A stretch of 64,000 nt of DNA, taken from Shinella pollutisoli. Lineage in GTDB: Bacteria; Pseudomonadota; Alphaproteobacteria; Rhizobiales; Rhizobiaceae. Positions 9,465 through 23,542 of this stretch are shown here, piece after piece. The notes beneath the pieces are model-generated. The model was not told the origin of the DNA. It did no database searches and worked only from the letters and a program-made list of their open reading frames with translations. The stretch lies in contig NZ_JANFDG010000003.1 of NCBI RefSeq assembly GCF_024609765.1, positions 124,001-188,000 on the forward strand. The letters are read 5' to 3'. The stretch's first letter is position 1. The number at the start of each line of letters is the position of its first letter. Position numbers and translations under genes: made by a program.

Positions 9465-10109
9465 TTGGGGCTGCTTGCCGCCGTGACGGCGGCGGCGCTG
9501 ACGATGGGGGCCGCCATGGCGCAGACGAAGGAGCAGCGGCTGATCGAGGCCGCGCAGGACGGCGACACCGCCGCGATCGCGGCGCTCCTGCCGCAGGGCG
9601 TCGCCATCGACGCGCGCAACGACCGGGGCGAGACCGCGCTCATGATCGCGACGCGCGCCAACGACGTCGCGGCGGCGCGGCTGCTCGTCGAGGCGGGCGC
9701 CGACGTCAACGCGAAGGATGCCATCGCGGACAGTCCCTATCTCTACGCCGGCGCGCGGGGCCACCTGGAAATCCTGCGCATGACGCTCGCCCACGGGGCG
9801 GACCTGAAGAGCACCAACCGCTTCGGCGGAACGGCGCTGATCCCGGCCGCCGAGCGCGGCCATGTCGAGACCGTCAGGACGCTGATCGGGGCGGGCGTCG
9901 ACGTCGACCACGTCAACGACCTCGGCTGGACCGCGCTCCTGGAGGCGATCATCCTGTCGGACGGCGGCCCGCGCCACATCGCCATCGTCCGGCTCCTCGT
10001 CGCGGCCGGCGCCCGCACCGATCTCGCCGACCGGGACGGCGTGACCCCGCTCCAGCACGCCCGCGCCCGCGGCTACGGGGAAATCGCGGCGATCCTCGAA
10101 GGCGGGTGA
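9465..10109 (+). CDS. Exported ankyrin-repeat protein
   Basis: About 214 residues from the TTG at 9465. A signal peptide (GLLAAVTAAALTMGAAMAQ) is followed by roughly five ankyrin repeats, for example NDRGETALMIATRANDVAAARLLVEAGADVNAKD. The frame stays open upstream, where it encodes SSPLARRRLGLL, a positively charged n-region that suits the signal peptide. The real start is therefore probably further upstream, possibly the CTG at 9393 that overlaps the stop of the binding-protein gene (CTGA). The protein is likely periplasmic and involved in protein-protein contact. Its link to sugar uptake is only positional. Confidence 0.8.
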   Translation: MGLLAAVTAAALTMGAAMAQTKEQRLIEAAQDGDTAAIAALLPQGVAIDARNDRGETALMIATRANDVAAARLLVEAGADVNAKDAIADSPYLYAGARGHLEILRMTLAHGADLKSTNRFGGTALIPAAERGHVETVRTLIGAGVDVDHVNDLGWTALLEAIILSDGGPRHIAIVRLLVAAGARTDLADRDGVTPLQHARARGYGEIAAILEGG

Positions 10110-10416
10110 CCGTGATCCATGCCGCATGCTTGCGGACGAAACGCCGGAGGCCATGCCGTTACGGGTAATTGGAAGCGGGGAAGCCTGGATCCGCCGTGCG
10201 CGGGATATGGCGGAGAGGGTGGGAATCTCGCTCGACCACCCTCAAACGCCTGAGAAACCAAGGTTCTTGAGTCGCCAAATTGGTGCCGTGTGTACCAATA
10301 TTGTGACCTTCACTTAGCCGTCAAATGCGGTGGGCGTCAATGGATTAAGCGGCCTTAAGCAGATCGTGTTCGACACCTGAGCAGTTATTTGGAACCGTGA
10401 ACTGATTGGAACTGCT
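10110..10416. other. Gene-free junction between chromosome and mobile element
   Basis: No convincing gene. The left attachment repeat of the mobile element lies at 10207-10224. Sequence before it is chromosomal flank downstream of the ankyrin gene; sequence after it is the element's left tip, which drops in GC content and contains no recognisable promoter for the leftward genes. Confidence 0.7.
10207..10224. repeat. attL, 18-bp direct repeat of the tRNA-Ser 3' end
   Basis: ATGGCGGAGAGGGTGGGA here is identical to 23452-23469, which forms the CCA, discriminator, acceptor strand and part of the T-stem of tRNA-Ser. It marks the distal end of the integrated element. Confidence 0.88.
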
Positions 10417-13400
10417 CTAACTCAGTGCTGGAAGTTCGATTCCCAGCATGATGCGGTCTGTTTCCGCCAGAATCTTGATAATCTTCTGGTAGTGGCGAAT
10501 ATCGTCCCATCCCAGCGCACGCCCCTTGCGATCCTTGAGCCACTTTTGCACGGGCCGATAACCACCGATGGGGAAATCCCAGGCAACGGCGGGCACGTTA
10601 TCGAAATACTGGGTGTTGTTAATCCAGATGCGCCCTGCATCGAAACGCGGCTTGTCTACCACGCTGTCACCGTCTCCGTCGAAGGGATAGGGCGTTGCAC
10701 CGATGGCAACATCTTCCATCAGATGCAGGCGGCGTAGTTCCTCCCCCTTTGCGCTAACAGCCCCGAACACTTCTGGCGAGGCCGGGAACGGAATGCGGGG
10801 GAAGTTGGACTTCAGGAACTCGGCGTAGGTCTGACGATAGGCGGGGCAATGCAGCACGCCATAGATGTAGTCGAACACCTTGACCTCCTCGGGACGGGCT
10901 TCGCCAGCCGCCTTGCGGAAGCTGTCCGTGCCATCGGGTGTGGAGAGCATCCCAGCTAACCCCGCCGCCTTGCGGATTCGAGCATATAGCTTGGGGTCGA
11001 AGTTCAGACTGATGGATTGGTCGAGGGTGCCTTCTTCCGGATACAGGTAGAGAGGGCAGAAATATCCACGCTCTTTTGACCGGTTGGAGACGTAGCTGTC
11101 ATCTCCGATCAAACTAGCGATAAAGACATTCGCCCAATCCCCTCCGACCCCTTGACGGCAAATCGCCAAGGCCAAGTTTGCTTTTGTGATAAAATGGCGC
11201 ATCACCCTTTCGCGTCGATGAACGGCTACGTGAGGGTCATAAACGGTGTAGCGAGTGTCGAATGGCCTGTAAGCGATAGGCGTTATTACGTTCCGCCATG
11301 CACCATCGGCCAGCGCGGATTTGGCAGTGGCATAGTTCCACTGGCTTTGCGAACATAGGCGAAATTGCTGGCGGGCTTCGGCTTCGTTCGCAGTCGAAAG
11401 CAGGCGCTCCACCTTTTCCGCAGCTTCAGCGGCGGTCCACGAAATCGCGAACTCGTCATGGGTCGTGACAATGCCCGGGGCTGGGCGGCCATTGGGTGAA
11501 AATAGGTCCGCCACAGAAAATCCGGCCTGATACGCAGCTTCCAGCACCTTGTCGGTGGGCTTGAAACGCCAAGGCGCGGCATCTGGTGAAACATCCTGTG
11601 CGGCAAGTTCGCCGGTCGTGCCGTCCCACAACCGCTGATATTTTGCTTCCCGGTCGCCCCATAGGTCGCCGTGGAACACGCTGGCCAGCTTCTTCGCCCC
11701 GCCTGCCTCACCCCGGTTCACTGCAATAATGATCGCCACGCCCTGCATGATGTCGAACACGTTTTTGTCCGGCGAACCGTCTGGGCTGACTTCCTTTTTC
11801 TTGGAATTGCCGTGCAGGTCCAGCACATAGATTCGATCAAATGTCTGGCGCAGATGATTCCGCATATCGAGGAATGTCGGGTTATCAAGATAACCGTGGT
11901 TGGTTATGAAACCCAGCACCCCTTCGCCGTTCTTCTCGATCATATGTTCGGCAAAACGGACGAACTTCACATAGTCATCTGACAGCCATTTGGCCTGTGC
12001 CGGGCGTTTCAATTCTGAGCTGACCTTGTAATCAGCCATTAGCTTTTCGATCCATTCCCCCTTGTTGGATGAATGACCAGAATAAGGCGGATTGCCGATC
12101 ACTACCATGATGGGCATTTGCCGTTTGATGTCGCTGGCGGCCTTGGCTTCCTCGGCAATGGCGCGAGACAGACCAAATAGGGTCTGTTCCACCCGCTCGC
12201 CTTCTTCAAGGCTGTTGGTAAGGTAGACACCAAGGCGGGGCGGCTTCGCCGTGGGCTTGTAGCCCAATGCGGTCAAGGTCATATCCAGTTTCATGTGGCA
12301 CATGGCGTAACTGGCCATCAGCAGTTCGAAGCCGTGGATACGCGGTATCAGGTCTTTTTCGACATAGTTGGACCATTGCCCCGGCGCGATCCCCTTCACC
12401 CGTTCGGCAACCAGCTTCACCACTTCGGCGAGAAAGGTGCCAGTGCCAGTAGCCGGATCGAGAATCTGGACGCGATGAACCTGTTTCTTGATCGTGATCG
12501 GCTTGCTTTTCTTGTCGTTCTGCCCAGTGTCCCAGTTGATTGTGATGCGGCTGGTGTCGGCCAGTCCGTCCGCTAGGCCGAACTCCGATTTGAGCACTTC
12601 GTCCACCGCACGAACTATGAAATTCACAACTGGCTCTGGCGTATACCAGACGCCACGCGCCTTGCGTTTAGCTGGGTTATATTCGGCTAGAAATACTTCA
12701 TAGAAATGGAGGAAAGGGTCTTGTCGCGCGGTCACTTTGCCGAAATTGGCCAACACTTTGGCCATGTTGGTTGCACAGAAAACATTGCACAATTCGTCTA
12801 TCACTCGGCGCAGACGTTCGTCCAAATTTGGTCCGGCTATATAGATAAATAACTGACGCAGGAATGGATTGGACCTGGGCAGAAGGTCCAACGCTTCAGC
12901 ACGAGTGAAACTGCTTGGCGTTTCATCATGTAAGCGCGCGGCAAAAAGACCGTAGGCGATGGTTTCCGCATAAATGTCAGCGAAATCTTCAACCTTAATG
13001 TCGTGAATCAGATTCGACTTGAATGCCTCATATTGGCCTATCAAATCAGTTGGTGGGGCTCCGTTATCTCGTTCCTTAAGGTCGGCACCCAGCGCGCGCG
13101 CCATTATGTCTTTGATGATCGCCGCCTTGCCTGCCATCATCTCGGCTAGTCGTCTCGACGAGGTGATGCTGAGGGGAGTGACGGTGGCGAAATCATGTAG
13201 GCGGTTTTCCAACGCGGAGAAGTTTTCTACACGCGCGGGTAGCGTCGGAATAAGGTCCGCAATAGTGATAAAGTCCACCACCTCGCCTTCGCGGATGAAC
13301 TCGAAATCCAACCCATTGGTGTAGATCAGATTGGGAAGGCCCTTTTTGTATCGCTCTTTTTGAGCTTTGCTGTAGTCATTCGAGGCAAACTTGCGAACAT

Positions 13401-13653
13401 CCCTGCCAATGTCCTTTGCCTCGCACCAACCGATAGCGATGTCTCCACGATTGAATACGAAATCGGGCGCACCAACGTCAGTGATATGTTTCGGCTCGTT
13501 GATAACGGTGAGCGCCGGATCAATAGCATTAAAGAGCTTGGCCAACGCGGGACGGAAGCTATGTTCGGTTGTCTGTCCACTCGCGTAAAGCGCACGAATT
13601 TCGTTGATATAACCCTGAATATCCATCGCGCTATCTAGAACAAGATGTTTCAT
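10417..13653 (-). CDS. Single-chain restriction-modification enzyme (type ISP/IIG-like, no helicase)
   Basis: This 1078-residue protein has a PD-(D/E)xK-like nuclease region at its N-terminus (D64 in APDFVF, E78 and K80 in CEAKD). A helical linker and an N6-adenine methyltransferase follow, with motif I DPATGTGTF near residue 397 and motif IV NPPY near 520. A long C-terminal region (about 650-1078) probably recognises DNA. Nuclease, methylase and specificity in one chain are typical of type IIG and type ISP enzymes. Type ISP proteins of about 1,570 residues also carry a helicase, which is missing here. A later in-frame ATG (MDIQGYINEIR, 27 bases downstream) is an alternative start. It is the cargo nearest the left end of the element and stands alone. 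Confidence 0.88.
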   Translation of the reverse strand: MKHLVLDSAMDIQGYINEIRALYASGQTTEHSFRPALAKLFNAIDPALTVINEPKHITDVGAPDFVFNRGDIAIGWCEAKDIGRDVRKFASNDYSKAQKERYKKGLPNLIYTNGLDFEFIREGEVVDFITIADLIPTLPARVENFSALENRLHDFATVTPLSITSSRRLAEMMAGKAAIIKDIMARALGADLKERDNGAPPTDLIGQYEAFKSNLIHDIKVEDFADIYAETIAYGLFAARLHDETPSSFTRAEALDLLPRSNPFLRQLFIYIAGPNLDERLRRVIDELCNVFCATNMAKVLANFGKVTARQDPFLHFYEVFLAEYNPAKRKARGVWYTPEPVVNFIVRAVDEVLKSEFGLADGLADTSRITINWDTGQNDKKSKPITIKKQVHRVQILDPATGTGTFLAEVVKLVAERVKGIAPGQWSNYVEKDLIPRIHGFELLMASYAMCHMKLDMTLTALGYKPTAKPPRLGVYLTNSLEEGERVEQTLFGLSRAIAEEAKAASDIKRQMPIMVVIGNPPYSGHSSNKGEWIEKLMADYKVSSELKRPAQAKWLSDDYVKFVRFAEHMIEKNGEGVLGFITNHGYLDNPTFLDMRNHLRQTFDRIYVLDLHGNSKKKEVSPDGSPDKNVFDIMQGVAIIIAVNRGEAGGAKKLASVFHGDLWGDREAKYQRLWDGTTGELAAQDVSPDAAPWRFKPTDKVLEAAYQAGFSVADLFSPNGRPAPGIVTTHDEFAISWTAAEAAEKVERLLSTANEAEARQQFRLCSQSQWNYATAKSALADGAWRNVITPIAYRPFDTRYTVYDPHVAVHRRERVMRHFITKANLALAICRQGVGGDWANVFIASLIGDDSYVSNRSKERGYFCPLYLYPEEGTLDQSISLNFDPKLYARIRKAAGLAGMLSTPDGTDSFRKAAGEARPEEVKVFDYIYGVLHCPAYRQTYAEFLKSNFPRIPFPASPEVFGAVSAKGEELRRLHLMEDVAIGATPYPFDGDGDSVVDKPRFDAGRIWINNTQYFDNVPAVAWDFPIGGYRPVQKWLKDRKGRALGWDDIRHYQKIIKILAETDRIMLGIELPALS

Positions 13654-13781
13654 TTAGGCAATCGCCAACAACGCGGGGGATCAAGACGGCATTCATCCGA
13701 CAATGCGCTCCCTTGTGTTTTTTGTCCCCCGTTTTCGGTCTCTCGAGCCCAGTTTTCTCCAGATTGCTATACAGGATCAAT

Positions 13782-13827
13782 AACTGACGATGACCGAGTC
13801 GTCATGTCGATTCGGCCATCGTCAGTT
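13782..13827. repeat. Imperfect long hairpin with perfect 11-bp arms
   Basis: AACTGACGATG (13782-13792) and CATCGTCAGTT (13817-13827) are exact inverted copies; inside them CCGA and TCGG can pair after one mismatch. It begins 1 bp past the stop of the upstream mobilization-operon gene and lies about 130 bp before the restriction gene start. It has no clear T-run, so it may be a terminator, an operator or both. Confidence 0.5.
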
Positions 13828-13828
13828 G

Positions 13829-14464
13829 TCAAGGTTTGGGCGACTGCGGATCATCTTCAGGTTTATCGTCGTCACCTGGCTTCGGCGGTTTCAATTCATG
13901 TTCCGTGTCCGAGGGAACGGAAGGTCCGCCCCCCGATTTCTTCTGGGCCTCGACCCAGGCGAGCGTAGCCTTGAGCATCAGGACATGGGCATCCTCCTCG
14001 CTGGCATCCGGGCGGAAACAGCGTGACAGCTCTGACCAGAGGTGCCGTTCCTCAACGTGCGCAAGCCAGTCCAGCGCCTCGACAGGAGCGGATTTGCGCA
14101 GCTCGTCAAGCGCATCCCGCCGTGTGGCTCCGCCCTGGCGGATATGCTCGACGAGCACTGGGTATGGCACCTTGCCTTTACTCAGAACGATATCAAGATA
14201 CCGTGTCGGCACCCCGAGATGCCGCGCAGCTTCGATGCGTTGGACCTGCCGCGGGGACATGGCCGGCGCGACGTAGCGCTGAGGGGCCGATACAGGTGCG
14301 GCAACCGGCATCCTGCCGAGGAGAAAGCCGAAGATGCCGAGCAATTGCATGGCTGACGATGCCGCGGGATTGTTCATCTGGGCGCGGCGAGCTTCAAGCC
14401 AGCGCTTGCGTGCGCGATCATAACAGGTGCGGCGTCTTTTCTCCTTGTGAATATCTGGTTTCAT
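13829..14464 (-). CDS. Unknown protein of the mobilization operon
   Basis: A 211-residue protein I do not recognise. The N-terminus is strongly basic (KEKRRRTCYDRARKRWLEARR), followed by a hydrophobic stretch (AMQLLGIFGFLLG, about 38-50). The middle is helical and the C-terminus is proline- and acid-rich (KPPKPGDDDKPEDDPQSPKP). Its ATG overlaps the relaxase stop by 4 bp, so it is translated from the mob transcript. A basic start, a single possible membrane segment and an acidic tail would suit a helper of DNA processing or of docking at a transfer apparatus, but that is guesswork. Confidence 0.75.
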   Translation of the reverse strand: MKPDIHKEKRRRTCYDRARKRWLEARRAQMNNPAASSAMQLLGIFGFLLGRMPVAAPVSAPQRYVAPAMSPRQVQRIEAARHLGVPTRYLDIVLSKGKVPYPVLVEHIRQGGATRRDALDELRKSAPVEALDWLAHVEERHLWSELSRCFRPDASEEDAHVLMLKATLAWVEAQKKSGGGPSVPSDTEHELKPPKPGDDDKPEDDPQSPKP

Positions 14465-15648
14465 GATCTGATCCTCCTCGTCAGATCATAGCTCGGGCTT
14501 TTCTCCTCGATCGGTTCCGCCGGCGTGATTGTTTTCTGTACGCGCTTTGCTTCCGCAATCCGCCATGCAAGGCGATCCCTTTCCGGGGCGAGCATCGACA
14601 TGATGGAGACGGCCAGTTCCATCGCCCGCCTGAGGAGATCGTCCAGGTCCAGTTTCGTAAGACGGTGTAGAAACAACGCCTCACGCGCTCGCGCTATCGA
14701 CGCGGTAGCCGATCGACCTTTTCGGTGAGGCTTTTCAGCGCCGTGGCTTGCATGTGCTGCGCGTCGAGTATCGAACCCAGGATTTCCATGAGTTGCGCTA
14801 TTCGGTCTGGCCCCTCTGGTGGCTCCAGAAGCGCGAGAAGCGGCAAGAGCCGTTCGGTGTTGCGCTCTGTTGCCATGATCATGCTCCGATACTCGGGGCG
14901 GACTTCTGCTGTGTCGTTCATTGGGGACTTCCTCCTGTAGGTGTTTCTCGAATTCGGCGCGCTTCACGCCGGCCGCACGGCACGCGGCGGAAACGAATGC
15001 TCCGCTCTCGACGGAGACCAGGATCGCGCCCTTCTCGCCCTCGGCAATGCGGAGCCCCTGGCGGTGAAGTTCGGCACGAAACGCCGCGCCCCCTTCGGCA
15101 AAGGATTTTCTCAACGCGGTGCGGTCGAAACTCGGCGCAACCCGCTCCGCCCGTTTACGTGCGGTGTCGGAAAAGCCTTCTGCCCGGTCACGTCGTCTTT
15201 CGGCGCGCGCTGGCTGGACGGTCTCGCCGTGGTCCAATTCGTAGCGGCGGGCGAGGTCTTCAAAACGCCGATAGTCATTCTTGCAGTCGAGCACCCGCAA
15301 CGTCCCGGGATCGACCTCGGCAACGGCAAGGTGAAAATGGCTCCGGCCATTTTTGATGTGGCGGACGATGAGGCGCGGTCGATTGGGACCGATATGGAAT
15401 TCCGCATCCACCGATCTGAGGAATTCGGATAATTGCCCTGGGGTCATCTCCCGCTCGGGAGAGATCGAGAGATGGCGGATGCTGTATCGACAGCCTTTTG
15501 CGGAGGCGAGCGCGTGGGCATCATGAAGGGCGATCCTATCACCCGCCAGAATCTCGATCCGTTCATTTTCATCGGTTTTGTCGAGCAGATGGCGGACCAG
15601 ATACTGAACCCCGCCGGCACGATTGATCCGGGTCGTCTGCACGATCAT
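14461..15648 (-). CDS. Relaxase / mobilization nuclease
   Basis: This 395-residue protein nicks the element at oriT and leads the strand during transfer. The N-terminal domain carries a likely catalytic Tyr16 (GGVQYLVRHL) and the metal-binding histidine motif with H97, H104 and H106 (RHIKNGRSHFHLAVAEV), as in VirD2/MobA-type relaxases. From about residue 243 to 318 the frame encodes an Arg/Ser/His-rich stretch that overlaps a second gene in another frame. A plausible helical tail then follows. It overlaps mobC at its start and the next gene at its stop by 4 bp each. It is either one protein with a low-complexity linker or, less likely, a relaxase damaged by a frameshift. Confidence 0.88.
   Translation of the reverse strand: MIVQTTRINRAGGVQYLVRHLLDKTDENERIEILAGDRIALHDAHALASAKGCRYSIRHLSISPEREMTPGQLSEFLRSVDAEFHIGPNRPRLIVRHIKNGRSHFHLAVAEVDPGTLRVLDCKNDYRRFEDLARRYELDHGETVQPARAERRRDRAEGFSDTARKRAERVAPSFDRTALRKSFAEGGAAFRAELHRQGLRIAEGEKGAILVSVESGAFVSAACRAAGVKRAEFEKHLQEEVPNERHSRSPPRVSEHDHGNRAQHRTALAASRASGATRGARPNSATHGNPGFDTRRAAHASHGAEKPHRKGRSATASIARAREALFLHRLTKLDLDDLLRRAMELAVSIMSMLAPERDRLAWRIAEAKRVQKTITPAEPIEEKSPSYDLTRRIRS
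14694..14921 (-). CDS. Small gene nested inside the relaxase gene in another frame
   Basis: A 75-residue ORF (MNDTAEVRPEYRSMIM...LPRR) lies wholly within the relaxase gene on the same strand. A consensus AGGAGG sits nine bases before its ATG. Its sequence is a balanced, helix-forming protein (LLPLLALLEPPEGPDRIAQLMEILGSILDAQ), while the relaxase frame over the same bases has the basic, serine-rich look of a shadow frame. This suggests the small ORF is the frame under selection here. The arrangement parallels mobB inside mobA of RSF1010, although no similarity in sequence is claimed. Possible role: accessory relaxosome protein. Confidence 0.65.
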   Translation of the reverse strand: MNDTAEVRPEYRSMIMATERNTERLLPLLALLEPPEGPDRIAQLMEILGSILDAQHMQATALKSLTEKVDRLPRR

Positions 15649-15968
15649 GAGATGATCTCCCGAAGGCGACCGCGCAGCTTGTCGAGTTCTGCGAGGGCCG
15701 ACACGAGTTCGGCATCGTGGCCTGACAATTTGCCCGCGTTTGCGCGACGGGCCAATTGATTGATGTTGCCACCGATACGGCCCAGTTCGGCCAAGGTCCG
15801 AGCCAGCAAGCCGACATGAGTGGCATCAAAAGACCGGACAGGCATACGAACGCCGAGTGCGGCACGGCGGAGCAAGTCCGACAATGACAGACCTCGGGCA
15901 ATGGCGCGGTCCTTCATTGCCGTTGCCTCGTCACGGCTGGCGCGAATCCGGATGATCTGATCCCGCAT
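15645..15968 (-). CDS. mobC: MobC-like relaxosome accessory protein
   Basis: A 107-residue protein starting MRDQIIRIRASRDEATAMKDRA. It has a ribbon-helix-helix-like N-terminus (LSLSDLLRRAALG) and the MobC signature IGGNINQLARRANAG. MobC proteins bind oriT and help the relaxase melt DNA around nic. The ATG at 15968 was chosen because AGGAG precedes it by eight bases; a longer in-frame start at 16052 would add an atypical Pro/Arg-rich leader. It is the first gene of the mob operon and overlaps the relaxase start by 4 bp. Confidence 0.85.
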   Translation of the reverse strand: MRDQIIRIRASRDEATAMKDRAIARGLSLSDLLRRAALGVRMPVRSFDATHVGLLARTLAELGRIGGNINQLARRANAGKLSGHDAELVSALAELDKLRGRLREIIS

Positions 15969-16354
15969 CGATCGTCTCCTGTTCGGCCCGTCTCGGGCCG
16001 TGAGGGGGTTCACGGGGGAGCTTGCTTCCCCTGACCAGCGGCGTGGGCACACGCCATTGCTGGCTCCCCTTTCTGTCTTCTGAGAAAAAGGATGCGATCA
16101 GGACTCCGCCGGCGCAAATAGCGCCAGGTCTCGGAGGGAGACAGATGGTTCCGCCTCCGCATGATCATCGTGGGTTTCGGGATGGAAGTGCGGGTTGCCG
16201 GATGCCGCGACGACGGCGGCATCTATCCGGACCATGGCGATTTCTACTGGGTATCAAACATCATCCATGTCACGGAATCGCACTGTATGGGCCTCCCTGA
16301 CGGTCGTTTTTTGACCTGGAAGCCCAAAATAGGCAGATTCTCGGCATCTTGGCC
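15969..16354. other. Gene-free region upstream of mobC, likely holding oriT and the mob promoter
   Basis: No credible gene; the ORFs here are short and continue as shadows of the methyltransferase. The stretch separates mobC from the methyltransferase gene and contains several inverted repeats, including the strong hairpin at 16035-16063 and GGCGC-AAATA-GCGCC near 16108-16122. Confidence 0.6.
16035..16063. other. Candidate oriT hairpin
   Basis: CCAGC-GGCGTG (16035-16045), loop GGCA, CACGCC (16050-16055), then ATT and GCTGG (16059-16063) form an 11-bp stem with a three-base bulge, about 67 bp upstream of mobC. Relaxase origins usually have such an inverted repeat beside the nic site, close to mobC. 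I see no sequence that securely matches a known nic consensus. Confidence 0.35.
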
Positions 16355-17731
16355 TCAAGCGGCCTGTTTCAGCGTCGTGACAGATTCCAGCTCTGGAAGA
16401 ACCGATACGGCCGGCCGACGTGGTTTCCGTTTCTTCTGGAGCTTTGATGCCTCGAATTCTGCGAGCACGGAAAGCGCCCGTCGTAGATCGCTCTTCGTGT
16501 TTTTCGGTAGCGCATCGAAACCAGACGCGGCTTCAAGCGCAAGGAGTTCGTGGCCCATATCCGCGAAGGTTCTGCCGTGAAGCAGACGCCGCGCCCTGCC
16601 AACATTGGCTTTGATATTGTGCGCCGTTGTCCGGGTACGCCCGACGCGGACAAGCCAATCGACAAACCGCCCCTCGATCGCGGGAACCGATTGCCCCTGG
16701 TGGCGCTCAAGGATGATTTCTCCGAGCGCGCGCGCCACCGGCGCGGGCACCGCGTTGGCGATCATCTGCAAGACATCGCGCTTCGGTATATCGCCCCACG
16801 TCCACTCGGCGGGGAAACCTTGAATGCGAGCGATTTGATCGACGCTGAGCACCGCCGTGTCCGTTGCCGTAACTGGATCGAGGTGATGGGGCGCACTCAG
16901 ATAACGCGGCGTCGGCCGTTCCCAGGATGTGCGGGTGATCGTAGCAATAGGCTCATCGATCGAGCGGACCCCGCGTCCGCCGCGAACTGGCCGGGAATAT
17001 ACGTATCCGTTTTCCAGCAAGGCCACATCGGCGGGATGGTATCTGTGACCTTCTGGAAGCGATCGGATCGACCGTTCCCGGATTGTCGGTGCGGATTCAT
17101 CGGCCGAGTAAAAGGAGCGTCGGGCATCTGATGTTGCGGGGAAAAACACGGCATCTGGCACCGCCGAGCCGAAAAACTGGCGCAACGTCATCGGTGCTGC
17201 GGATGCCTTCGTGGCAATGGCCGATTGAAGGAAACCGTCCTTCTCTCCCAATCGCCCGACGACAAAAAGACGCCGCCGAGATTGCGGCACCCCGAAATAG
17301 GCGGCGTTGATTTTGGATTCCGAAAGTCCATAGCCGGCGCGTTTCAGCATGGCGCGCGACTCGGCCCAAGCTTCTGACTTCTGGGCTTGTGTCACATTTT
17401 CCATGATGAACCACTGAGGGCGAACCGTCGTCACGACGATTGCGAACGCGATGGTCATGGACGCATTCTTCCCTTCCTCGCGTCTGCCGGCGAGCGAATA
17501 GTCCTGACACGGCGGACCACCACAAATGATATCTGGCGCAAGCGCCGATATTTCCGGAACGACGGTGAGGAGATTATTCAGGTCGGCCTCGACCACATGA
17601 GGTCCGATATTTCGGCGGTAGGTTTCCACCGCGGCGGGCCAGGCATCGTATGCCCGAACAACGTCAAATCCCGCATCGACAAGGCCGCGGGACATCCCGC
17701 CAGCACCACAAAACAACTCAACCGCTCGCAC
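16355..17731 (-). CDS. C5 cytosine DNA methyltransferase
   Basis: A 458-residue methyltransferase that transfers a methyl group from SAM to cytosine C5. Motif I is ELFCGAGGMSRG (residues 5-16), motif IV GGPPCQDYS with catalytic Cys75, motif VI ENV (111-113), motif VIII QSRRR; the variable target-recognition region and motifs IX-X follow. The frame stays open 159 bases upstream, but that extension is serine-rich and overlaps the next gene. I therefore use the GTG at 17731, which follows AGGGG and leaves the usual few residues before motif I. No cognate endonuclease is adjacent, so it may be an orphan or protect the element. Confidence 0.9.
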   Translation of the reverse strand: MRAVELFCGAGGMSRGLVDAGFDVVRAYDAWPAAVETYRRNIGPHVVEADLNNLLTVVPEISALAPDIICGGPPCQDYSLAGRREEGKNASMTIAFAIVVTTVRPQWFIMENVTQAQKSEAWAESRAMLKRAGYGLSESKINAAYFGVPQSRRRLFVVGRLGEKDGFLQSAIATKASAAPMTLRQFFGSAVPDAVFFPATSDARRSFYSADESAPTIRERSIRSLPEGHRYHPADVALLENGYVYSRPVRGGRGVRSIDEPIATITRTSWERPTPRYLSAPHHLDPVTATDTAVLSVDQIARIQGFPAEWTWGDIPKRDVLQMIANAVPAPVARALGEIILERHQGQSVPAIEGRFVDWLVRVGRTRTTAHNIKANVGRARRLLHGRTFADMGHELLALEAASGFDALPKNTKSDLRRALSVLAEFEASKLQKKRKPRRPAVSVLPELESVTTLKQAA

Positions 17732-17750
17732 GAAACCCCTGCCATGCCTA

Positions 17751-17768
17751 TCATGTACTTGTACATGA
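17751..17768. promoter_or_regulatory. Palindrome just upstream of the methyltransferase start
   Basis: TCATGTAC-TT-GTACATGA is a perfect 8+8 bp palindrome that ends 20 bp upstream of the GTG start. The position suits an operator for autoregulation by the methyltransferase or for a small DNA-binding protein such as the RHH protein encoded upstream. Confidence 0.55.
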
Positions 17769-17819
17769 GGTTTCTTCACATGCCAGGGGTTACGAAAATG
17801 CGAATATCGAGCAGCGGTG

Positions 17820-18038
17820 TCAGCGTCCGTTTTCGTGTTGCTCGATTCTGAGGATGAGCTGCCAGGCTTCATCCAGCCGCACCCTGACATCGGTTAGTGC
17901 GCATGAAACGTTGTATCCGTCAGTCGTTCCGAGGTAATCAAAACGGTCTGCCGCGGTCTCAATCTCATCCCGAAGGCGACGATACTTCTCGACATTCAGA
18001 GGAAAATCTGGCGTTGGGATGTCGGTGAATTTCCTCAT
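17820..18038 (-). CDS. Small unknown protein
   Basis: A 72-residue protein (MRKFTDIPTPDFPLNVEKYRRLRDEIE...) not recognised. It is mostly helical and acidic toward the end. Its ATG overlaps the stop of the gene before it by 4 bp, which supports this start over a longer frame open from 18305 whose extension is a shadow of that gene. It is the last of a coupled pair lying just upstream of the methyltransferase gene. Confidence 0.6.
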   Translation of the reverse strand: MRKFTDIPTPDFPLNVEKYRRLRDEIETAADRFDYLGTTDGYNVSCALTDVRVRLDEAWQLILRIEQHENGR

Positions 18039-18289
18039 ATCGGCCTCGCCAGCTTGGCCCATTTCTGCGTGCGATAAGCAGGATTGAATGCCCGGACGAT
18101 ATCGCATTGCCAAGGGTCGAGACGCCACCAGGCACCTTCCTCGTCCTTGGCAAAACTGGGATTCGTGTGCTCCAGTGCGTTGAGTGCCAGCCCGATTGTC
18201 ATGCGTTCGGTCGTGGACCCTGGCAAGTCTCCCACGGCGATTTCGCCCCGTGCCACCTGGCCGATTTTCTCGATGATCTTTTCTCTCAT
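18035..18289 (-). CDS. Small unknown protein
   Basis: An 84-residue protein (MREKIIEKIGQVARGEIAVGDLPGSTTERM...) not recognised. The N-terminal half is amphipathic helix; the C-terminal half contains aromatic residues (GAWWRLDPWQCDIVRAFNPAY). It is followed with 4-bp overlap by the 72-residue gene and lies 12 bp after the 114-residue gene, so all belong to one leftward operon. Confidence 0.6.
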   Translation of the reverse strand: MREKIIEKIGQVARGEIAVGDLPGSTTERMTIGLALNALEHTNPSFAKDEEGAWWRLDPWQCDIVRAFNPAYRTQKWAKLARPI

Positions 18290-18301
18290 GCCGTTTTCCT
18301 C

Positions 18302-18646
18302 TCAAGCTTCTGTTCTGGGGGATTGCTGACGCGCGGACCTGAGCGCCTTCGCCAGCGTCTCGTGCGGCTCGTAAGTCATGGTGTCGTCAGTGATGTCTTG
18401 GACGTGCCACCAGCGACGATCGGGGTGCCGCCGGCCGCCACCGGTCACGTAATCTCCGCCGAATTCGAGCACGTCACCAGGCTGAACGGGTTCAAGGTCA
18501 ACAACCTCGCCCACGGCCTTTAGAAATGCCCGTTCGCAATTGGCGGCATTCCTTCCGCGCATGATCGCGGCCCAGTTCCTTCCGCGCCGGTGATTGCAAT
18601 AAGCAGGGTTTTCGACGGATCGGCCGTCGAGTTCGATAGTTGTCAT
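18302..18646 (-). CDS. Small unknown protein, possible nucleic-acid-binding fold
   Basis: A 114-residue protein (MTTIELDGRSVENPAYCNHRRGRNWAAIMRGR...) not recognised. The middle reads LEPVQPGDVLEFGGDYVTGGGRRHPDRRWWHVQDI, a beta-rich pattern with a PGDVLEF element. It overlaps the upstream RHH gene by 4 bp. The Cys/His/Arg-rich beginning could bind nucleic acid or metal, but there is no clear family match. Confidence 0.6.
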   Translation of the reverse strand: MTTIELDGRSVENPAYCNHRRGRNWAAIMRGRNAANCERAFLKAVGEVVDLEPVQPGDVLEFGGDYVTGGGRRHPDRRWWHVQDITDDTMTYEPHETLAKALRSARQQSPRTEA

Positions 18647-18834
18647 GCCCGTTTTCCTTTCTCTTTGAGGGCTGTTTGCACCAGGCTCGTGACGAATGCC
18701 CGGATGGTCGTTTCACGCTGCGCGGCATGGATTTTCAGCGCCATCAGCGTTCCTGTCGGAAGCTCGACCGTCAGCCTTTCGGCACGGCTCCGCCCCTCCC
18801 GCAGAAGCGGGTTATTTCTTGATTTCGTTCCCAT
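18643..18834 (-). CDS. Ribbon-helix-helix-like DNA-binding protein
   Basis: A 63-residue protein with a basic leader and then ERLTVELPTGTLMALKIHAA, a beta strand plus helix, and TTIRAFVTSLVQTALKEKG, a second helix. This is the pattern of a ribbon-helix-helix repressor of the Arc/MetJ or partition type. It heads the small-gene train (18834 leftward) and is a natural candidate for regulating it or the methyltransferase palindrome. Family assignment is by pattern only. Confidence 0.6.
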   Translation of the reverse strand: MGTKSRNNPLLREGRSRAERLTVELPTGTLMALKIHAAQRETTIRAFVTSLVQTALKEKGKRA

Positions 18835-19026
18835 TTTCAGAGTTCCTGTTTTTGTGAGAAGGCAACTTTGTGCGTCCTCACATCATCATGCTGACGCCGA
18901 TATCGGATGCCCACAAGGGGGCCGGCGCACGATTTCTGAAAAAAGATCGAGATGCCCTGTGGGGCAACAATGATGTCGGAATTGCCGCGGCCTACGATCG
19001 ATCTGCGCCACGCCGGCCTGAAGGTT

Positions 19027-19260
19027 TCAGTTCCGGGCAAAGCGTCGGAATGCCTGAATACCATCGCGCTCGATCTCTCGACGTAGGTGTTCAGCGGCAC
19101 CCAGAAGACGCGATCGGCGGATGAGATGCCGTGCGGACGCGGTTTCCACGTAGATTGATGCCACGTATCCGTTGACATGTCCGGCCGCATCCCGATCCTG
19201 GAATTCTTCAATCAGGATGTTGTACGTCAGCCCTCTGAAAACGGTTGTTCTGATCGCCAT
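19027..19260 (-). CDS. Small unknown protein
   Basis: A 77-residue protein (MAIRTTVFRGLTYNILIEEFQDRDAAGHVNGYVASIYVETAS...) not recognised. It is predicted beta-rich in the first half and helical, basic in the second (ARHLIRRSRLLGAAEHLRREIERDG). It lies upstream of the RHH gene with a 190-bp gap that holds no good gene. An overlapping frame at 18837-19211 is rejected as a shadow. Confidence 0.5.
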   Translation of the reverse strand: MAIRTTVFRGLTYNILIEEFQDRDAAGHVNGYVASIYVETASARHLIRRSRLLGAAEHLRREIERDGIQAFRRFARN

Positions 19261-20102
19261 GGAATGCCTCGATTTCCGGTGTTTCCAATGGCTTGATTAT
19301 AGCCGCCGCAATGCAGGAGCCCAGGAAGGAACGCGGCATGGTTGCATCATGCCGGAGGCGCGGTAAGCGGAATCAGTAGAATTCTAGGGTTTTCCAGTTT
19401 GCCCTGTTCCCTGTTCGATGCGCCGGCCGCGAGAACCCGCCCCGTAGGGGCGGCCGAGACGTTCCCCGTCCCGATGCCTCAAAGTCGCCATCGCGCACAG
19501 CGGCAGTCACCCGGAAGGGCCGAAACGACGTGGAGGATGTCCGTAGGACATTGACAGAGCGCGCACGGCGGCAGGCTTGCGCGTCAGAGTGGGGTTGGAT
19601 TTCAGGAGGTATCTGAGGTCATCCGAAGTGTATATTAGCGCTGTACGAGCCTCCAGGAGCCTCTTTTTTCGATACCGATGTCCGAAATCGCGGAATCCGC
19701 CCTTTCGCGCGGTTTTCCGCGCCCATGAGAGACGTGAGCATATCGGAGCCCCAAGCATAGCGACCCGATAGGGATGGGGCGGGAATTCGCGCATGCGGTA
19801 ATCGGAGAGAGGGTAGCCGCAGGAAGGGTAGCATCGCGCCGCCGGCGGGCGGACCCTGGGACCGACTACCCCGATATCGCATTCCGTTTCTAACCCATTC
19901 GGAGAGGTGCAAGGTCACGCCCTTCCCATGCCCGTTTTTCGGCTCCGCGACTGGGGTGAACGTCAGGGCAAGAGACGGAAGATGATTTTATAGGATCGGG
20001 TGGGGGTGCAAGCACCCCCTGGCCTTCGGCCTCCCCCAGCCTCAGTAAACACCATACACCGTGACGAATCGTGACGGACGCTGAATTTGCAGATGGTCAC
20101 AG
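19261..20102. other. 842-bp non-coding region with several GC hairpins, candidate replication/regulatory region
   Basis: No credible gene on either strand. It contains the perfect hairpins CCGCCCC-GTA-GGGGCGG (19437-19453) and ATGTCC-GTA-GGACAT (19537-19551), both with a GTA loop. A strong double hairpin lies at 20002-20031, and CGTGACG occurs twice at about 20059-20075. It sits directly downstream of the replication-protein gene and upstream of the small-gene operon, so it may hold an origin, the operon promoter, or both. Confidence 0.45.
20002..20031. terminator. Tandem GC hairpins downstream of the replication gene
   Basis: GGGGGTGC-AA-GCACCCCC (20002-20019) is followed at once by GGCC-TTC-GGCC (20021-20031). 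The position, 70-100 bp past the stop of the minus-strand replication gene, suits transcription termination, but no clear T-run follows and a role at an origin is possible. Confidence 0.45.
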
Positions 20103-21575
20103 CTAGCCGGCGGCGGCTCTGGCTTCTTTCATGGCTTTGGAAATCTGGCCTGTGGAAACGCCGAAACGAACGGCCAGGTCATCGCGGGTCATGCCGTCCT
20201 TAGCGGAGAGGTGAAGGCATTTCCTGCCGAGCTCCAAGCGAGCGGCCTGTTGCTCGTTCTGATCTTTTGCACCGCGTCGGCGGCGGCTCTCCGTCTGACG
20301 CTCGGCCTCGCGCTCGCGGCGTCTGTCCGTGTCGATGAGTACCCGGAGATCGGCGGCCCGCATTTCGGCGGGCTCGATCTGGAGCCAGTCGATAATGGTG
20401 CCCACCTTCATTCTGTACCGGGCATCGACTTCCTTGCCGTTATAGGTTGCCATCTTTCCAGAAACGGCCTGTCGCGCCCGTTTCACAACGGCGCTCATTC
20501 TGGCTTTGGACTCCGATTCCGACCATCCCGCCGATTGCATTGCAAGGATACGGATTTCCCGTTCCATGTCGTCCACCGCGCGGGTCCAGGAGAGGGCATT
20601 GGCCGCGACGAAAAGCCAGATGTCGCGTTGTCCCGGGGGAAGGGTCCCCGTGACGGGATTGCGGTATCTACGAAGGCTCTGAAGGTCGTCGTGTACCGTG
20701 GACCAGTATGTCGCGCCGGTCAGCTTCTGGCCCGACTGTCTGGGCCGTCCCTCACGCTCCTCGTGGCGGGCGGCGCGCTCTGCCTGTAGCGAAATGATCT
20801 GGGCCTGAGTGTACGGCAGCACCTCGTCCGCAAGCGTGCCGAATACGTGACGTGTCGGCGTATCTGGTGTTCCCTGACACCAGATCATGCCGACCTGACG
20901 CCGATCCCAATCGGCGCGGGAATTGGTGCTTCCGGAAAGTCGGAAAACACGAGCGGCATCCAGCGCCCTCTTGTCCGCGCCGAATTCCGTGAGCGCGCCG
21001 GCCAGAGCTTTTTGCACCTGGCTCCAGCGCGGCAACGCCATAGGTGGAAGGAGTTCGGTCAGCCAGACGCAGACCAGGCCGCGCCCTGTCGCAAGGATAT
21101 AGGATGGAAACGGTATGCCGCCTTCTTCGAGTTTATGAAGAACCGCCGCGGCAACAGCACTTGGCCGCTTTTCCTTCCATCGCACGCGCTGGTGATAATC
21201 GAGATCGACGTAATTTGAACCGAGAGCGGACAGGTCCGCAACGCCGCGCCAACGATTGAATGCCTGTTGGCTGATATACACATCGTCGCCACCGACGCGA
21301 AGGACTTGCTCGGCCTGAAGGATAGCATCGCCGCCAACGGGAACGGTCCACTCTCGCCAGTTCTTCTTGCCGTCCGATACGCGCTGGGCGAAGGATACGA
21401 CACCCTTGCGAATGCCGTTATGGGTTCTGGTGTTCTCTGGATGAAGAGCCTGCAGATGCTGGCGAGGGCCGAAGAGATCATATCGGAACGTCCCATCGGG
21501 CCAAAAATGTTGACAACTTTCGCCGGGTAAAGTGGGGCTCTGATCGGCTGGGATATGTCCCAGCCTCGCCGTCAC
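20103..21575 (-). CDS. AEP-primase-like replication protein
   Basis: A 490-residue protein with the core of an archaeo-eukaryotic-type primase: NYVDLDYH (metal-binding D124 and D126), SYILATGRGLVCVWL (158-172) and RVFRLSGSTNSR (209-220). A helical middle part and a long basic segment (RRREREAERQTESRRRR) follow. The C-terminus ends in a helix-turn-helix-like region (TRDDLAVRFGVSTGQISKAM). Such proteins start replication of plasmids and integrative elements after excision. The GTG at 21575 is the first start in the frame; no better one is evident. It lies between the integrase gene and the structured non-coding region. Confidence 0.8.
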   Translation of the reverse strand: MTARLGHIPADQSPTLPGESCQHFWPDGTFRYDLFGPRQHLQALHPENTRTHNGIRKGVVSFAQRVSDGKKNWREWTVPVGGDAILQAEQVLRVGGDDVYISQQAFNRWRGVADLSALGSNYVDLDYHQRVRWKEKRPSAVAAAVLHKLEEGGIPFPSYILATGRGLVCVWLTELLPPMALPRWSQVQKALAGALTEFGADKRALDAARVFRLSGSTNSRADWDRRQVGMIWCQGTPDTPTRHVFGTLADEVLPYTQAQIISLQAERAARHEEREGRPRQSGQKLTGATYWSTVHDDLQSLRRYRNPVTGTLPPGQRDIWLFVAANALSWTRAVDDMEREIRILAMQSAGWSESESKARMSAVVKRARQAVSGKMATYNGKEVDARYRMKVGTIIDWLQIEPAEMRAADLRVLIDTDRRREREAERQTESRRRRGAKDQNEQQAARLELGRKCLHLSAKDGMTRDDLAVRFGVSTGQISKAMKEARAAAG

Positions 21576-21639
21576 TCAGCCGTCAATGGCGGCTTTACAA
21601 TGCAGAAAAGATCGTTCATCATTTTCGAACATTCCCAAG

Positions 21640-21682
21640 AAAAACCGCCGGAGGGTTGCGAGCCCGTTGATGGCGGTTTTTT
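21640..21682. terminator. Bidirectional intrinsic terminator between integrase and replication gene
   Basis: AAAAACCGCC (21640-21649) and GGCGGTTTTT (21672-21681) form a 10-bp stem with A- and T-tracts on both sides, 117 bp past the integrase stop. Confidence 0.75.
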
Positions 21683-21798
21683 CATGGTCGGGTGATACCA
21701 CGTCGGCGTCAAGCGCCGAATATTCGCTACGATGTAGTACGGTGGAGGGCCTATGGTGGCGACACGATTTTGTCGCCACAGCGATCTATAGTAGTCGG

Positions 21799-23367
21799 TT
21801 ACTCCAGCGTAAACTTCGGAAGCTTCGATATCTCATGCGCAAGTACATGCGGCTCGAAACCGCCATAGGCTTCGCCTTCCGTTGCAGGAACATGGCCTTG
21901 CATGTAATCGCGCGCGCCTACATCCATGTAAACACCGCGTGCTTTCGTCTTGAAGAGATGCCGCCACGCATGGTTCGGGGAAATATTCTCATCATCAACG
22001 CCGAGCTCGCGAATCCATGCGGCAAGTCGCTCTCCGACCTTTTTGTATTGCGGGTTTCCGTCCTTGCCGCCACGGTATCGGGCCGGGTCGTAGAATAGAG
22101 GGCCGATCTTCTTCGACTGCACGAATGCCAGGAAGCCTTGCTCGATCAAATGCGGGTGGATCGCCACAAATCGGGCTTTCGAGTCTTTGGTCGACCCCGC
22201 CTCTGGCGTAATCCTAATAAGCCAATGGCCTTCTTCCTTGATGATATCCTGTTTGCGCAACTGTGTGATTTCGCCAACGCGCGCGCCGGTGTAGGCGCAC
22301 AACCAGGGAATCCATCGTCGCGCAGCCTTATTTTCCTCGGAGAGCCGCTTGGGTGGTTCAGCCGTGGTACCGATAAGGATCGTGCGGACTTCTCCGGCCG
22401 TGAACCATTTGTTCCGGACTTTGCTTTTCTTAGGGATGGCGACCACTACATCATCAACGGGATTGACAGCTATCCGCCCATTCCCCTTACCCCAATTGCA
22501 AGTGGCCTTGAGGCAGGCAAGGTAGCTATTTTTTATGTGCCCGTGATCCAGGCCCCTCGCCACAAGCCGATCCTTCCAGTCAATCACCCATTCGCGTGTC
22601 AGATCGCGAATGTCGGGCACCTCCTCCGCCACCTTGGCGATAATCGGCTTCCACTTCTTATATGTCGCATGTTTGACTGCTTTCTCGGCGGCGTATTTCT
22701 CGAAGACGGTCAAGAGCGCGAAATTCCCCAGGTTCTCCTTGCTGTCTTTTTTAGGAGCCAGGTCGAGTTCTGGGAAGCGGTTGGCATCCGGGTCTGGCCG
22801 ATAGTCGCCCTCGGAAAGCTTCAGAAGATGCTCCTTGGCCTGGAGAATGGCTTCGGCCACCGCTTTGCGTAACAACTCCATGCTGGCGGCATCGATGCGA
22901 TACCCATGGCGATCGAGGTAGGCATTGATGGCCTTGTCGTTGCGGAGCGTCTTCGTCGCATGCAAAATCCGCTCGACGAGCTCCGCATTCCTGGAGATAG
23001 GGATGACCTTGACCTTCTCTGGACGGAGGTGAAGGTAGTCGCTCATCAGAGACGCTTTTCGAGAAGAGGGGGCACCTGGGTTGTCTTCGTTCTCCTCGAC
23101 CATGCTCCGATAGATTTGCCCAGACATAGCAACAGCCTGTTTCTGCGACAGGGAGATCACCCCTGCCGATAACTGCCGCCATCGGGATTCGACTTCGACC
23201 AGTATTTGAGCATGCGCGATTACGGCCTCCTGCGGGTCGCGGGTGCCGAGGCTCTTCTTCACATACGGCATTCCGACAAGAGGAATCAGATGCTGCGGGA
23301 CGCGTTGGCGGAACTGGTAAATGCCAGTTTTGGGGTGCTTTGTAGGGCGTGTCATTCTCAGGACCAT
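21799..23367 (-). CDS. int: Tyrosine recombinase / integrase
   Basis: This 522-residue integrase cuts and rejoins the element at the tRNA-Ser site. The N-terminal arm-binding region starts TKHPKTGIYQFRQRVPQHL. The catalytic domain has Arg in YTGARVGEITQLRK (near residue 363), the HxxR box in NHAWRHLFKTKA (near 466) and the nucleophile Tyr in EGEAYGG (near 500). All catalytic elements are present, so it should be active. Its start is about 85 bp from the tRNA 3' end, the standard position for tRNA-targeting integrases. A terminator follows it. Confidence 0.93.
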   Translation of the reverse strand: MVLRMTRPTKHPKTGIYQFRQRVPQHLIPLVGMPYVKKSLGTRDPQEAVIAHAQILVEVESRWRQLSAGVISLSQKQAVAMSGQIYRSMVEENEDNPGAPSSRKASLMSDYLHLRPEKVKVIPISRNAELVERILHATKTLRNDKAINAYLDRHGYRIDAASMELLRKAVAEAILQAKEHLLKLSEGDYRPDPDANRFPELDLAPKKDSKENLGNFALLTVFEKYAAEKAVKHATYKKWKPIIAKVAEEVPDIRDLTREWVIDWKDRLVARGLDHGHIKNSYLACLKATCNWGKGNGRIAVNPVDDVVVAIPKKSKVRNKWFTAGEVRTILIGTTAEPPKRLSEENKAARRWIPWLCAYTGARVGEITQLRKQDIIKEEGHWLIRITPEAGSTKDSKARFVAIHPHLIEQGFLAFVQSKKIGPLFYDPARYRGGKDGNPQYKKVGERLAAWIRELGVDDENISPNHAWRHLFKTKARGVYMDVGARDYMQGHVPATEGEAYGGFEPHVLAHEISKLPKFTLE

Positions 23368-23451
23368 GTGTACCGCCTTTGTGTACCACTCTGGCGGTTA
23401 AAGGTCCCTGAAGCTCAGCTAGTTAAGCAATTTCAACGCTGTTTGGAGGGA

Positions 23452-23469
23452 ATGGCGGAGAGGGTGGGA
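23452..23469. repeat. attR, 18-bp direct repeat inside tRNA-Ser
   Basis: The same 18 bases as attL at 10207-10224; here they form the 3' end of the functional tRNA gene, including its encoded CCA. Confidence 0.88.
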
Positions 23470-23542
23470 TTCGAACCCACGATACCCTTGCAGGTATGCC
23501 GCATTTCGAGTGCGGTGCATTCGACCACTCTGCCACCTCTCC
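23453..23542 (-). tRNA. tRNA-Ser(CGA)
   Basis: A 90-base class II tRNA. Acceptor GGAGAGG pairs with CCTCTCC, discriminator G and encoded CCA follow. The anticodon loop contains CTCGAAA (anticodon CGA, codon UCG). There is a long variable arm typical of serine, and the T-arm GTGGGTTCGAATCCCAC is intact. Its 3' end is the integration site of the neighbouring element. Confidence 0.96.

Follow-up and report, generated by a model that had tools for sequence, protein, structure and literature searches.

We report here that a 13,245-bp segment of the genome of Shinella pollutisoli is probably an integrative and mobilizable element (IME) endowed with a replicon of the plasmid type. It lies in a stretch of 64,000 nucleotides (contig NZ_JANFDG010000003.1, positions 124,001 to 188,000), which is called the window in what follows. 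The element proper spans 10207-23451 and is flanked by an exact 18-nt repeat, ATGGCGGAGAGGGTGGGA, found at 10207-10224 and at 23452-23469, of which neither strand of the 64-kb window holds a further copy; this repeat apart, the tRNA region shares no stretch longer than 12 nt with the remainder of the window. The GC content of the element (0.575) stands apart from that of its left (0.699) and right (0.685) flanks. The 8-mer TGTGTACC has exactly three copies in the 64 kb, both strands counted (10289, 23367 and 23380), all of them at most 85 nt inside the cores, as would be expected of integrase arm sites, for which they are good candidates. An earlier note on this DNA had pointed to the exact 18-bp repeats, to the tRNA-Ser(CGA) site and to an integrase adjoining the tRNA, and the repeat match, the tRNA call and the family matches bear it out; its span of 10207..23469 (13.3 kb) rightly described one bounded element, the proper end of which is at 23451, as 23469 takes in the second copy of the repeat.

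10207..10224, no strand: distal copy of the attachment core, 18 nt (exact repeat)
10289..10296, plus strand: candidate integrase arm-type site TGTGTACC at the distal end (three window copies, all near the element ends)
21799..23367, minus strand: tyrosine integrase with a DUF6538 N-terminus (PF20172, 1.2e-12; phrog_1, 1.4e-20; Phage_integrase, PF00589, 2e-4, below the family cut-off)
23367..23387, plus strand: two candidate TGTGTACC arm-type sites, at 23367 and 23380 (copy count in the window)
23452..23469, no strand: proximal attachment core, which forms the 3' end of tRNA-Ser (exact repeat)
23453..23542, minus strand: tRNA-Ser(CGA), the integration target (tRNA call)

The assigned genes of the element lie on the minus strand throughout and follow one another, from the tRNA, as integrase, replication initiator (Rep), five small open reading frames (ORFs), C5 methyltransferase, MobC/NikA-like protein, relaxase, a 211-aa protein (p211) and a Type IIG-like enzyme. 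Besides an integrase and the 18-nt core at both ends, the element has, as IMEs do, mobilisation genes of its own without a complete conjugation apparatus: among the 12 ORFs taken in by the family searches (two small ones against Pfam only), no transfer gene was found, be it for a type IV secretion system or for a coupling protein. The matches to PF03432, PF21983 and PF05713 agree with the earlier claim of a relaxase and a MobC protein unaccompanied by transfer genes.

13829..14464, minus strand: p211, overlapping the relaxase gene (genomic context)
14461..15648, minus strand: relaxase, MobA/VirD2-like (PF03432, 5.8e-10; TraI_MobP below cut-off)
15645..16052, minus strand: MobC/NikA-like relaxosome protein (PF21983, 2.9e-17; PF05713, 1.6e-8)
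16201..16223, minus strand: inverted repeat upstream of mobC, a weak candidate for an origin of transfer, oriT (8-bp perfect arms)

The relaxase has no relatives in viral_contigs. Plasmid pT173c of Ensifer canadensis carries a homologous set of MobC, relaxase (51%) and p211, partly broken, and because p211 follows the homologous relaxase there too, it probably belongs to the mobilisation module. It has no family match at E<=0.01 in the family searches, and shows no significant similarity to the 224-aa protein that adjoins the relaxase-like gene in genome G323, described below.

The replicon consists of the rep gene, of a leader upstream of it and of a conserved noncoding region immediately downstream.

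19317..20102, minus strand: noncoding, conserved stretch on the 3' side of rep, a candidate for the origin region (blocks of ~67-80% identity among the window, L001, L002 and L003)
20002..20019, no strand: perfect hairpin GGGGGTGC-TT-GCACCCCC inside the region just named (also in L001, L002 and L003)
20044..20075, minus strand: cis motif GTCACGATTCGTCACGGTGTATGGTGTTTACT, 27 nt after the rep stop, candidate core of an origin of vegetative replication, oriV (just 3' of rep in 7/7 close relatives)
20103..21575, minus strand: plasmid-type replication initiator with a core like that of archaeo-eukaryotic primases, AEP (phrog_9432; plasmid Rep homologues; 11-sequence alignment; PrimPol profile match)
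21572..21622, minus strand: leader peptide ORF MMNDLFCIVKPPLTAE, its stop overlapping the Rep start codon (counterpart in 7/7 loci)
21640..21682, minus strand: leader hairpin flanked by A and T runs, candidate attenuator (48/49 pairs with compensatory changes across 7 loci; folds)

The gene at 20103..21575 had been read as an AEP-like primase. The AEP-like core, its DxD motif and the fact that the element has a replication gene of its own stand; because its nearest annotated relatives are plasmid Reps, the protein is better read, on sequence grounds, as a plasmid initiator built around such a core, in which the motif-II histidine is missing. It matches the 'replication protein' family phrog_9432 at 2.7e-6, and in Pfam it has no AEP or primase match of its own, only weak helix-turn-helix (HTH) matches. 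By tblastn, 475 plasmid records match it; among the 40 matches listed, identity is 27-37% over 84-96% of the query, and most are annotated as replication proteins, that of the IncP-6 plasmid p10265-KPC among them. Phage records gave a single match (33% identity over 65% of Rep), and viral_contigs held no relative. In an alignment of 11 sequences, D124/D126 and D206-A-x-R209-V-x-R212 are invariant in all, and correspond to the motif I DxD and motif III region of AEPs. The profile of the 11 sequences matched, in the PDB, the AEP domain of PrimPol (6zp9, 5.5e-4) and HTH proteins, while a profile of four sequences found nothing relevant there; the Pfam family RepB_primase weakly matched three of the 11 family members, at best with 0.00096.

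These affinities place the replicon next to those of the IncU and IncP-6 plasmids (RA3, Rms149, p10265-KPC), which have a homologous Rep with a C-terminal HTH (28.8% identity to that of p10265-KPC) and a conserved cis sequence that coincides with the 3' end of rep or directly follows it, described for RA3 as part of the mapped oriV in the account of that plasmid (PMC9455977). RA3, as its description goes, has a repressor gene, repA, and an antisense gene, repX, upstream of rep; in the window their place is taken by the integrase and by a hairpin leader with its coupled leader peptide. Unlike these plasmids, likened here by description only in the case of RA3, the window element integrates, and its cis motif shares the position of the IncP-6 repeat and not its sequence.

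Rep relatives at 58-70% identity were found in Ciceribacter lividus (locus L001, genome G784), Hoeflea sp. BAL378 (L002, G785), a metagenome-assembled genome of the Rhizobiaceae (L003) and genomes G727, G619 and G631. The protein is rare: four other genomes of 393 in the family have it at E<=1e-20, counting the weaker G562, and in the order another five of 396 genomes match at E<=1e-10, every one of them more weakly. Just 3' of rep, the sequence GTCACGATTCGTCACGGTGTATGGTGTTTACC or a close variant is present, in either orientation, in 7/7 of these close relatives, the window included (in L002, by alignment, with a 2-nt insertion). Its 17-nt core, with up to two mismatches, occurs nowhere else in the 1.29 Mb of collected loci; the DNA of the motif region has no match in plasmids, and the exact motif is absent from viral_contigs. 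Four elements have in common some 700 nt of conserved noncoding sequence (window 19317-20043), which contains the hairpin listed above and repeated boxes resembling CGCTATGCT; in G727, G619 and G631 the hairpin was not found, even with up to four mismatches allowed.

The leader could be compared in seven loci (window, L001, L002, G727, G619, G631 and G323), L003 beginning inside rep. Upstream of Rep, all seven have a TTGAC box, a hairpin between an A-run and a T-run, and an ORF, 16-17 codons long, that carries VKPP or something very similar towards its end. The stop of this ORF overlaps the Rep start codon, a GTG in six loci and a TTG in G631, and because of this overlap translation of Rep is probably coupled to that of the leader. 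The 7-pair stem of the hairpin keeps 48 of 49 pairs, with two or three types of pair at five positions, and only 0.1% of 2000 re-pairings of the arms across sequences come up to the observed pairing. The pairs were counted by script, as the MAFFT alignment misregisters the 3' arm, and the best 7-pair arms were chosen for each sequence, which favours pairing. G323 is of particular interest here: the body of Rep is replaced by an unrelated 585-aa protein (L140:9915-11672) and the motif is gone, yet the first Rep residues, the leader peptide, the hairpin and an upstream palindrome, to which we return below, are retained. In this one case, the motif and Rep have left together, the leader having stayed.

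What surrounds this backbone varies from one relative to the other. Tyrosine integrases accompany it in the window, G619 and G631, and, as judged by eye, in L002; L001, G727, G323 and G438 have instead a serine recombinase located in a gene that we take to be comM-like, no Rep match having been found for G323 and G438 in the family and order searches. An alternative relaxase-like protein is common to G784 (L001), G785 (L002), G727, G619, G631, G323 and a further Shinella genome, G399 (52-68% identity to the G323 copy); its family is weakly identified, the G727 copy alone matching Pfam Mob_Pre (8e-4) and the G323 copy matching nothing. Because the relatives carry different recombinases and a different mobilisation module, the window element is a mosaic that shares with them its replication backbone. 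The earlier note had taken it that the same gene block, found elsewhere without the 18-bp repeats, would speak against its element. Such an occurrence is seen for the replication backbone and not for the whole element: in L001 (G784), G727 and G323, the backbone, or its leader and small genes, lies beside the serine recombinase in the comM-like gene, which shows an exchange of modules and leaves the element standing.

Two further observations concern these islands. Four of them carry a protein of ~650 aa (58-66% identity to the G323 copy), which adjoins the relaxase-like gene and a protein of ~225 aa.

L139:17444-19417: ~650-aa protein in G323
L002:13679-15643: ~650-aa protein in Hoeflea sp. 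BAL378
end of L141 and start of L112: ~650-aa protein in G727
L164:4911-6893: ~650-aa protein in G784

Among the matches listed, it shows 24-28% identity to plasmid proteins of the 'DotA/TraY family', and it might, by analogy with SGI1, reshape the conjugation apparatus of a helper. The second observation is that of a flagellin-like gene and an adjoining LuxR-like gene, both named by eye, in two of the islands at the comM-like gene, with rep on one side and the small genes or the methyltransferase on the other (L001:12043-14524; L112:12868-14742 in G727); in L001, a ~160-bp piece of the conserved noncoding region is repeated on both sides of this insert.

The integration site was surveyed in 21 genomes of the genus, that of the window included, searched both with the tRNA side and with the left flank. 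The segment running from the tRNA to two genes on its right side, which we take to be ribosomal protein genes, is present in 20/20 congeners, and the sequence beyond the tRNA varies from one to the other, one left flank being common to five and another to two. The left regions of the 20 congeners, at most 20 kb long (4-16 kb for two of them), match the 50 kb on the left of the element at scattered places only. An exact copy of the 18-nt core is found in G399 at 174230, at a distance of 7.9 kb from the tRNA end, and a different relaxase-like gene adjoins it. In G631, a decayed element of ~7.5 kb lies between tRNA-Ser and a copy of the core with one mismatch, and includes a Rep relative (59-60%) with one internal stop. 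Judging from these comparisons, the tRNA-Ser site is an integration hotspot, and because the elements of G399 and G631 use the same site, the core is independently supported. The ankyrin-like gene immediately to the left of the element (window 9465-10109) has its counterparts, in the two congeners checked (G412 and G415), 0.53 and 0.77 Mb away from this tRNA, and the genes to its left match a partly inverted segment in G398; the left flank has been rearranged. Extra copies of the tRNA-Ser(CGA) region, 82-99% identical, are found elsewhere in congeners (L034, L035, L036 and L037, in G398, G406, G399 and G409), possibly on other elements.

Other ways to understand this stretch of DNA must be weighed against an IME with a plasmid-type replicon. 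In a conventional genomic island, the AEP-like gene could stand for a repair or defence PrimPol, as its DxD core and the PrimPol profile match would have it; this we deem highly improbable, the nearest annotated relatives being plasmid Reps and the gene having a plasmid-like leader at its 5' side and a conserved site at its 3' side. It could also be that the island is defective, its attachment repeats still present while it no longer excises or replicates. Rep is single-copy in the genome, and decayed relatives are known, such as the G631 element at the same tRNA or the remnant of the mobilisation module in Ensifer pT173c; yet the main ORFs are open, the mobilisation genes overlap in an operon-like manner, and both cores, the three arm-like sites and the leader pairing are intact, which makes a defective island unlikely. 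As for the motif that follows rep, it might be a cis site of a kind other than an origin, serving as an oriT, in recombination or in the regulation of Rep: G619 and G631 have it inverted, placed between rep and the relaxase-like gene, and G727 has two copies, 1.1 kb apart, around a cargo gene. However, the motif accompanies this Rep across differing recombinases and mobilisation modules, it is missing where Rep was exchanged (G323, one case), and its position agrees with the mapped oriV of RA3. A site other than an origin is, on balance, rather unlikely.

Several observations, it must be stressed, tell against the preferred reading, that of an IME with a plasmid-type replicon. At the integration site, no empty site with the flanks of the window was found, and the left flank lies within 1.5 kb of the tRNA in 0/20 congeners. 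No oriT homology was found. The histidine of AEP motif II (sxH) is replaced by V in the window clade (the 11-sequence alignment has Q in IncP-6, Burkholderia and Ammonifex, and H only in Massilia and Acinetobacter), and because of this replacement primase activity of Rep is doubtful. The AlphaFold model of Rep, built from four sequences, is poor (mean pLDDT 49). The flanks examined around the weaker Rep relative G562 (152 bits) contain no motif, nor was the motif found, with up to three mismatches, at eight more distant Rep loci. Near three of these eight distant Reps a local alignment does better than 30 shuffles (Methylobacterium, G389 and, marginally, Ammonifex), and it does no better in IncP-6, Burkholderia, Massilia, G315 and G342. 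Finally, in a consensus scan of the leader region (21540-21860), the minus strand yielded neither a sigma-70-type promoter nor a simple terminator. The plus strand gave one promoter and one terminator, at rates near chance; such a pair would fit an antisense RNA, yet does not count as evidence for one.

The rest of the element is made of genes that had been described as cargo and as unknown proteins.

10417..13653, minus strand: one-chain restriction-modification (R-M) enzyme, Type IIG-like, with a Type_ISP_C specificity domain, 1078 aa (PF18135, 4e-79; PADLOC REase_MTase_IIG, 4.6e-271)
16355..17731, minus strand: solitary C5-cytosine methyltransferase with a C-terminal extension (PF00145, 2e-47; GTG start at 17731, from relatives)
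17751..17768, no strand: TCATGTACTTGTACATGA, a palindrome specific to the element and a candidate operator (ends 49 nt ahead of the ELFCGAGG codon)
17820..18032, minus strand: small ORF, 70 aa (44% in L002)
18035..18289, minus strand: small ORF, 84 aa (66% in L002)
18302..18646, minus strand: small ORF, 114 aa (no homologue found in family searches or relatives)
18643..18834, minus strand: ribbon-helix-helix-like protein, 63 aa, candidate regulator (PF07878, 0.0013, below cut-off)
19027..19260, minus strand: small protein, 77 aa (43-68% in L001, L002, L003, G619 and G323)

The R-M enzyme joins methyltransferase (PF02384) and specificity (PF18135) domains in one chain, as in Type IIG enzymes, and the one-chain enzyme announced in the earlier note is confirmed by these and by the PADLOC match, cleavage being predicted. 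Its N-terminus falls within the full-length PADLOC model and has no separate nuclease-domain match, and a helicase domain was not found in Pfam. It resembles the 'Type ISP'/Type IIG enzymes LlaBIII and LlaGI in the fusion of a methyltransferase with a Type_ISP_C specificity domain; it differs from LlaBIII, which has 1578 aa and aligns over residues 310-650 only. The enzyme is common, with 338 matching plasmid records, the best at 55%. Five small proteins had indeed been noticed; four of them have homologues in the relatives, and one is weakly ribbon-helix-helix, its homologues showing 51-55% identity in L001 and L002 and 53% in G323. The 77-aa protein was not found in G727.

The palindrome deserves more attention. 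The window copy of TCAYGTANNNNTACRTGA is the sole one in the 5.2-Mb genome, its inner 16-mer having a 2-mismatch variant at 21834. Six genomes have ten exact copies in all (G000 1, G727 2, G323 3, G784 1, G785 2, G786 1), all ten in element stretches, and four others (G398, G407, G619 and G631) have none. An exact or 1-mismatch palindrome lies 43-51 nt before the ELFCGAGG codon in four of the seven located copies of the methyltransferase gene (window, L003, G323 and G727b), and is lacking in the other three (L129, L130 and G727a); homologues L128, L131 and L132 were not located by the motif used. Because the same palindrome precedes copies in four elements (window, L003, G727 and G323), the methyltransferase, rightly called solitary and matching PF00145, looks partly like backbone, where it had been considered as cargo. 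The palindrome also lies ~180-200 nt upstream of Rep in L001, in G323 and, with one mismatch, in L002; it is absent from G619 and G631, which have a Rep of this clade, and from the region upstream of Rep in G727. Three copies are found at or between converging ORFs (L002 13123, L003 5360 and G727 35676, that is L112:1676), and this speaks against a role as promoter operator for all the copies alike. As to the regulator, no candidate is present in all carriers of the palindrome. The ribbon-helix-helix protein is found in the window, L001, L002 and G323, and not in L003 (a 6.7-kb contig) or G727; the C5 methyltransferase was not found in the L001/L164 stretch; the HTH of Rep is an unsuitable candidate, Rep being exchanged in the palindrome carrier G323. 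Methyltransferase homologues (47-54%) exist in other genomes of the family (L143 in G438, and L128-L132), the G438 copy near the serine recombinase in the comM-like gene, and one in G464 has an internal stop.

We propose the following life cycle for the IME. By recombining the 18-nt core with which tRNA-Ser(CGA) ends at its 3' side, the integrase would allow the element, whose anatomy is that of an integrated form, to exist in the chromosome or, after excision, as a circle. In the circle, Rep would bind the conserved motif at 20044-20075, just 3' of its own gene, and start replication, in analogy with RA3. The conserved leader, with its promoter-like TTGAC box, its A/T-flanked hairpin, perhaps a terminator, and its 16-codon ORF, would keep Rep synthesis low. 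With an oriT nicked by MobC and the relaxase, the element would exploit the conjugation apparatus of a helper; the R-M enzyme would favour retention of the element and restrict invaders; and the solitary C5 methyltransferase lies behind an element-specific palindrome that is probably an operator.

IMEs with plasmid-like replication genes are already known, SGI1 being the precedent. In the account given in PMC7433901, SGI1 is an integrated mobilizable island with a Rep of its own and a putative origin adjoining rep; it replicates, and variants swap rep, their oriV missing and likely replaced, one type having replicase and PriCT-1 domains. It differs in that it integrates at trmE, not at tRNA-Ser, in that its Rep is of another family, and in that it is controlled by AcaCD of the helper (PMC7433901). 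The IMEs of Mesorhizobium, likewise in Rhizobiales, adjoin tRNA genes, tRNA-Ser among them; those delineated are mostly MOBF, the word 'primase' is absent from that text, and the passages concerned describe no such Rep module (PMC8627217). The 11.2-kb integrase plasmid pHS87b, likened here by description, also occurs in an integrated form, its site being the 3' end of the tRNA-Thr gene of Pseudomonas aeruginosa (PMC4739549). A review of 2017 reports Rep types and R-M systems in IMEs and states that nobody had by then studied the replication of excised IMEs (PMC5704250); for SGI1, such replication was later demonstrated (PMC7433901). A literature search, restricted to open papers, found no description of the present family of Rhizobiales islands. 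What is new here is a leader with a covarying hairpin and an overlapping ORF, a cis motif after rep, and an element-specific palindrome before a methyltransferase. It is unusual that the leader outlived the exchange of both initiator and origin motif, and that a palindrome restricted to elements stands before a solitary methyltransferase.

It is tempting to go one step further, albeit tentatively, as we hold the following to be possible and no better than doubtful as a whole: in these Rhizobiales islands, a portable copy-control cassette, made of the promoter-like box, the covarying terminator-like hairpin and the leader peptide, may persist while initiator and origin are swapped, and the element-specific palindrome may join the replicon and the solitary C5 methyltransferase in a single regulon, methylation being a control of the life cycle and not cargo. 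This compact set of elements seems to have exchanged rep, its control leader, the candidate origin, the recombinase and the mobilisation module independently of one another, so that it becomes testable which part sets the copy number and which defines the origin. The solitary methyltransferase, placed behind a palindrome found in elements only, would provide a clean case for asking whether 'orphan' enzymes of this kind regulate mobile elements.

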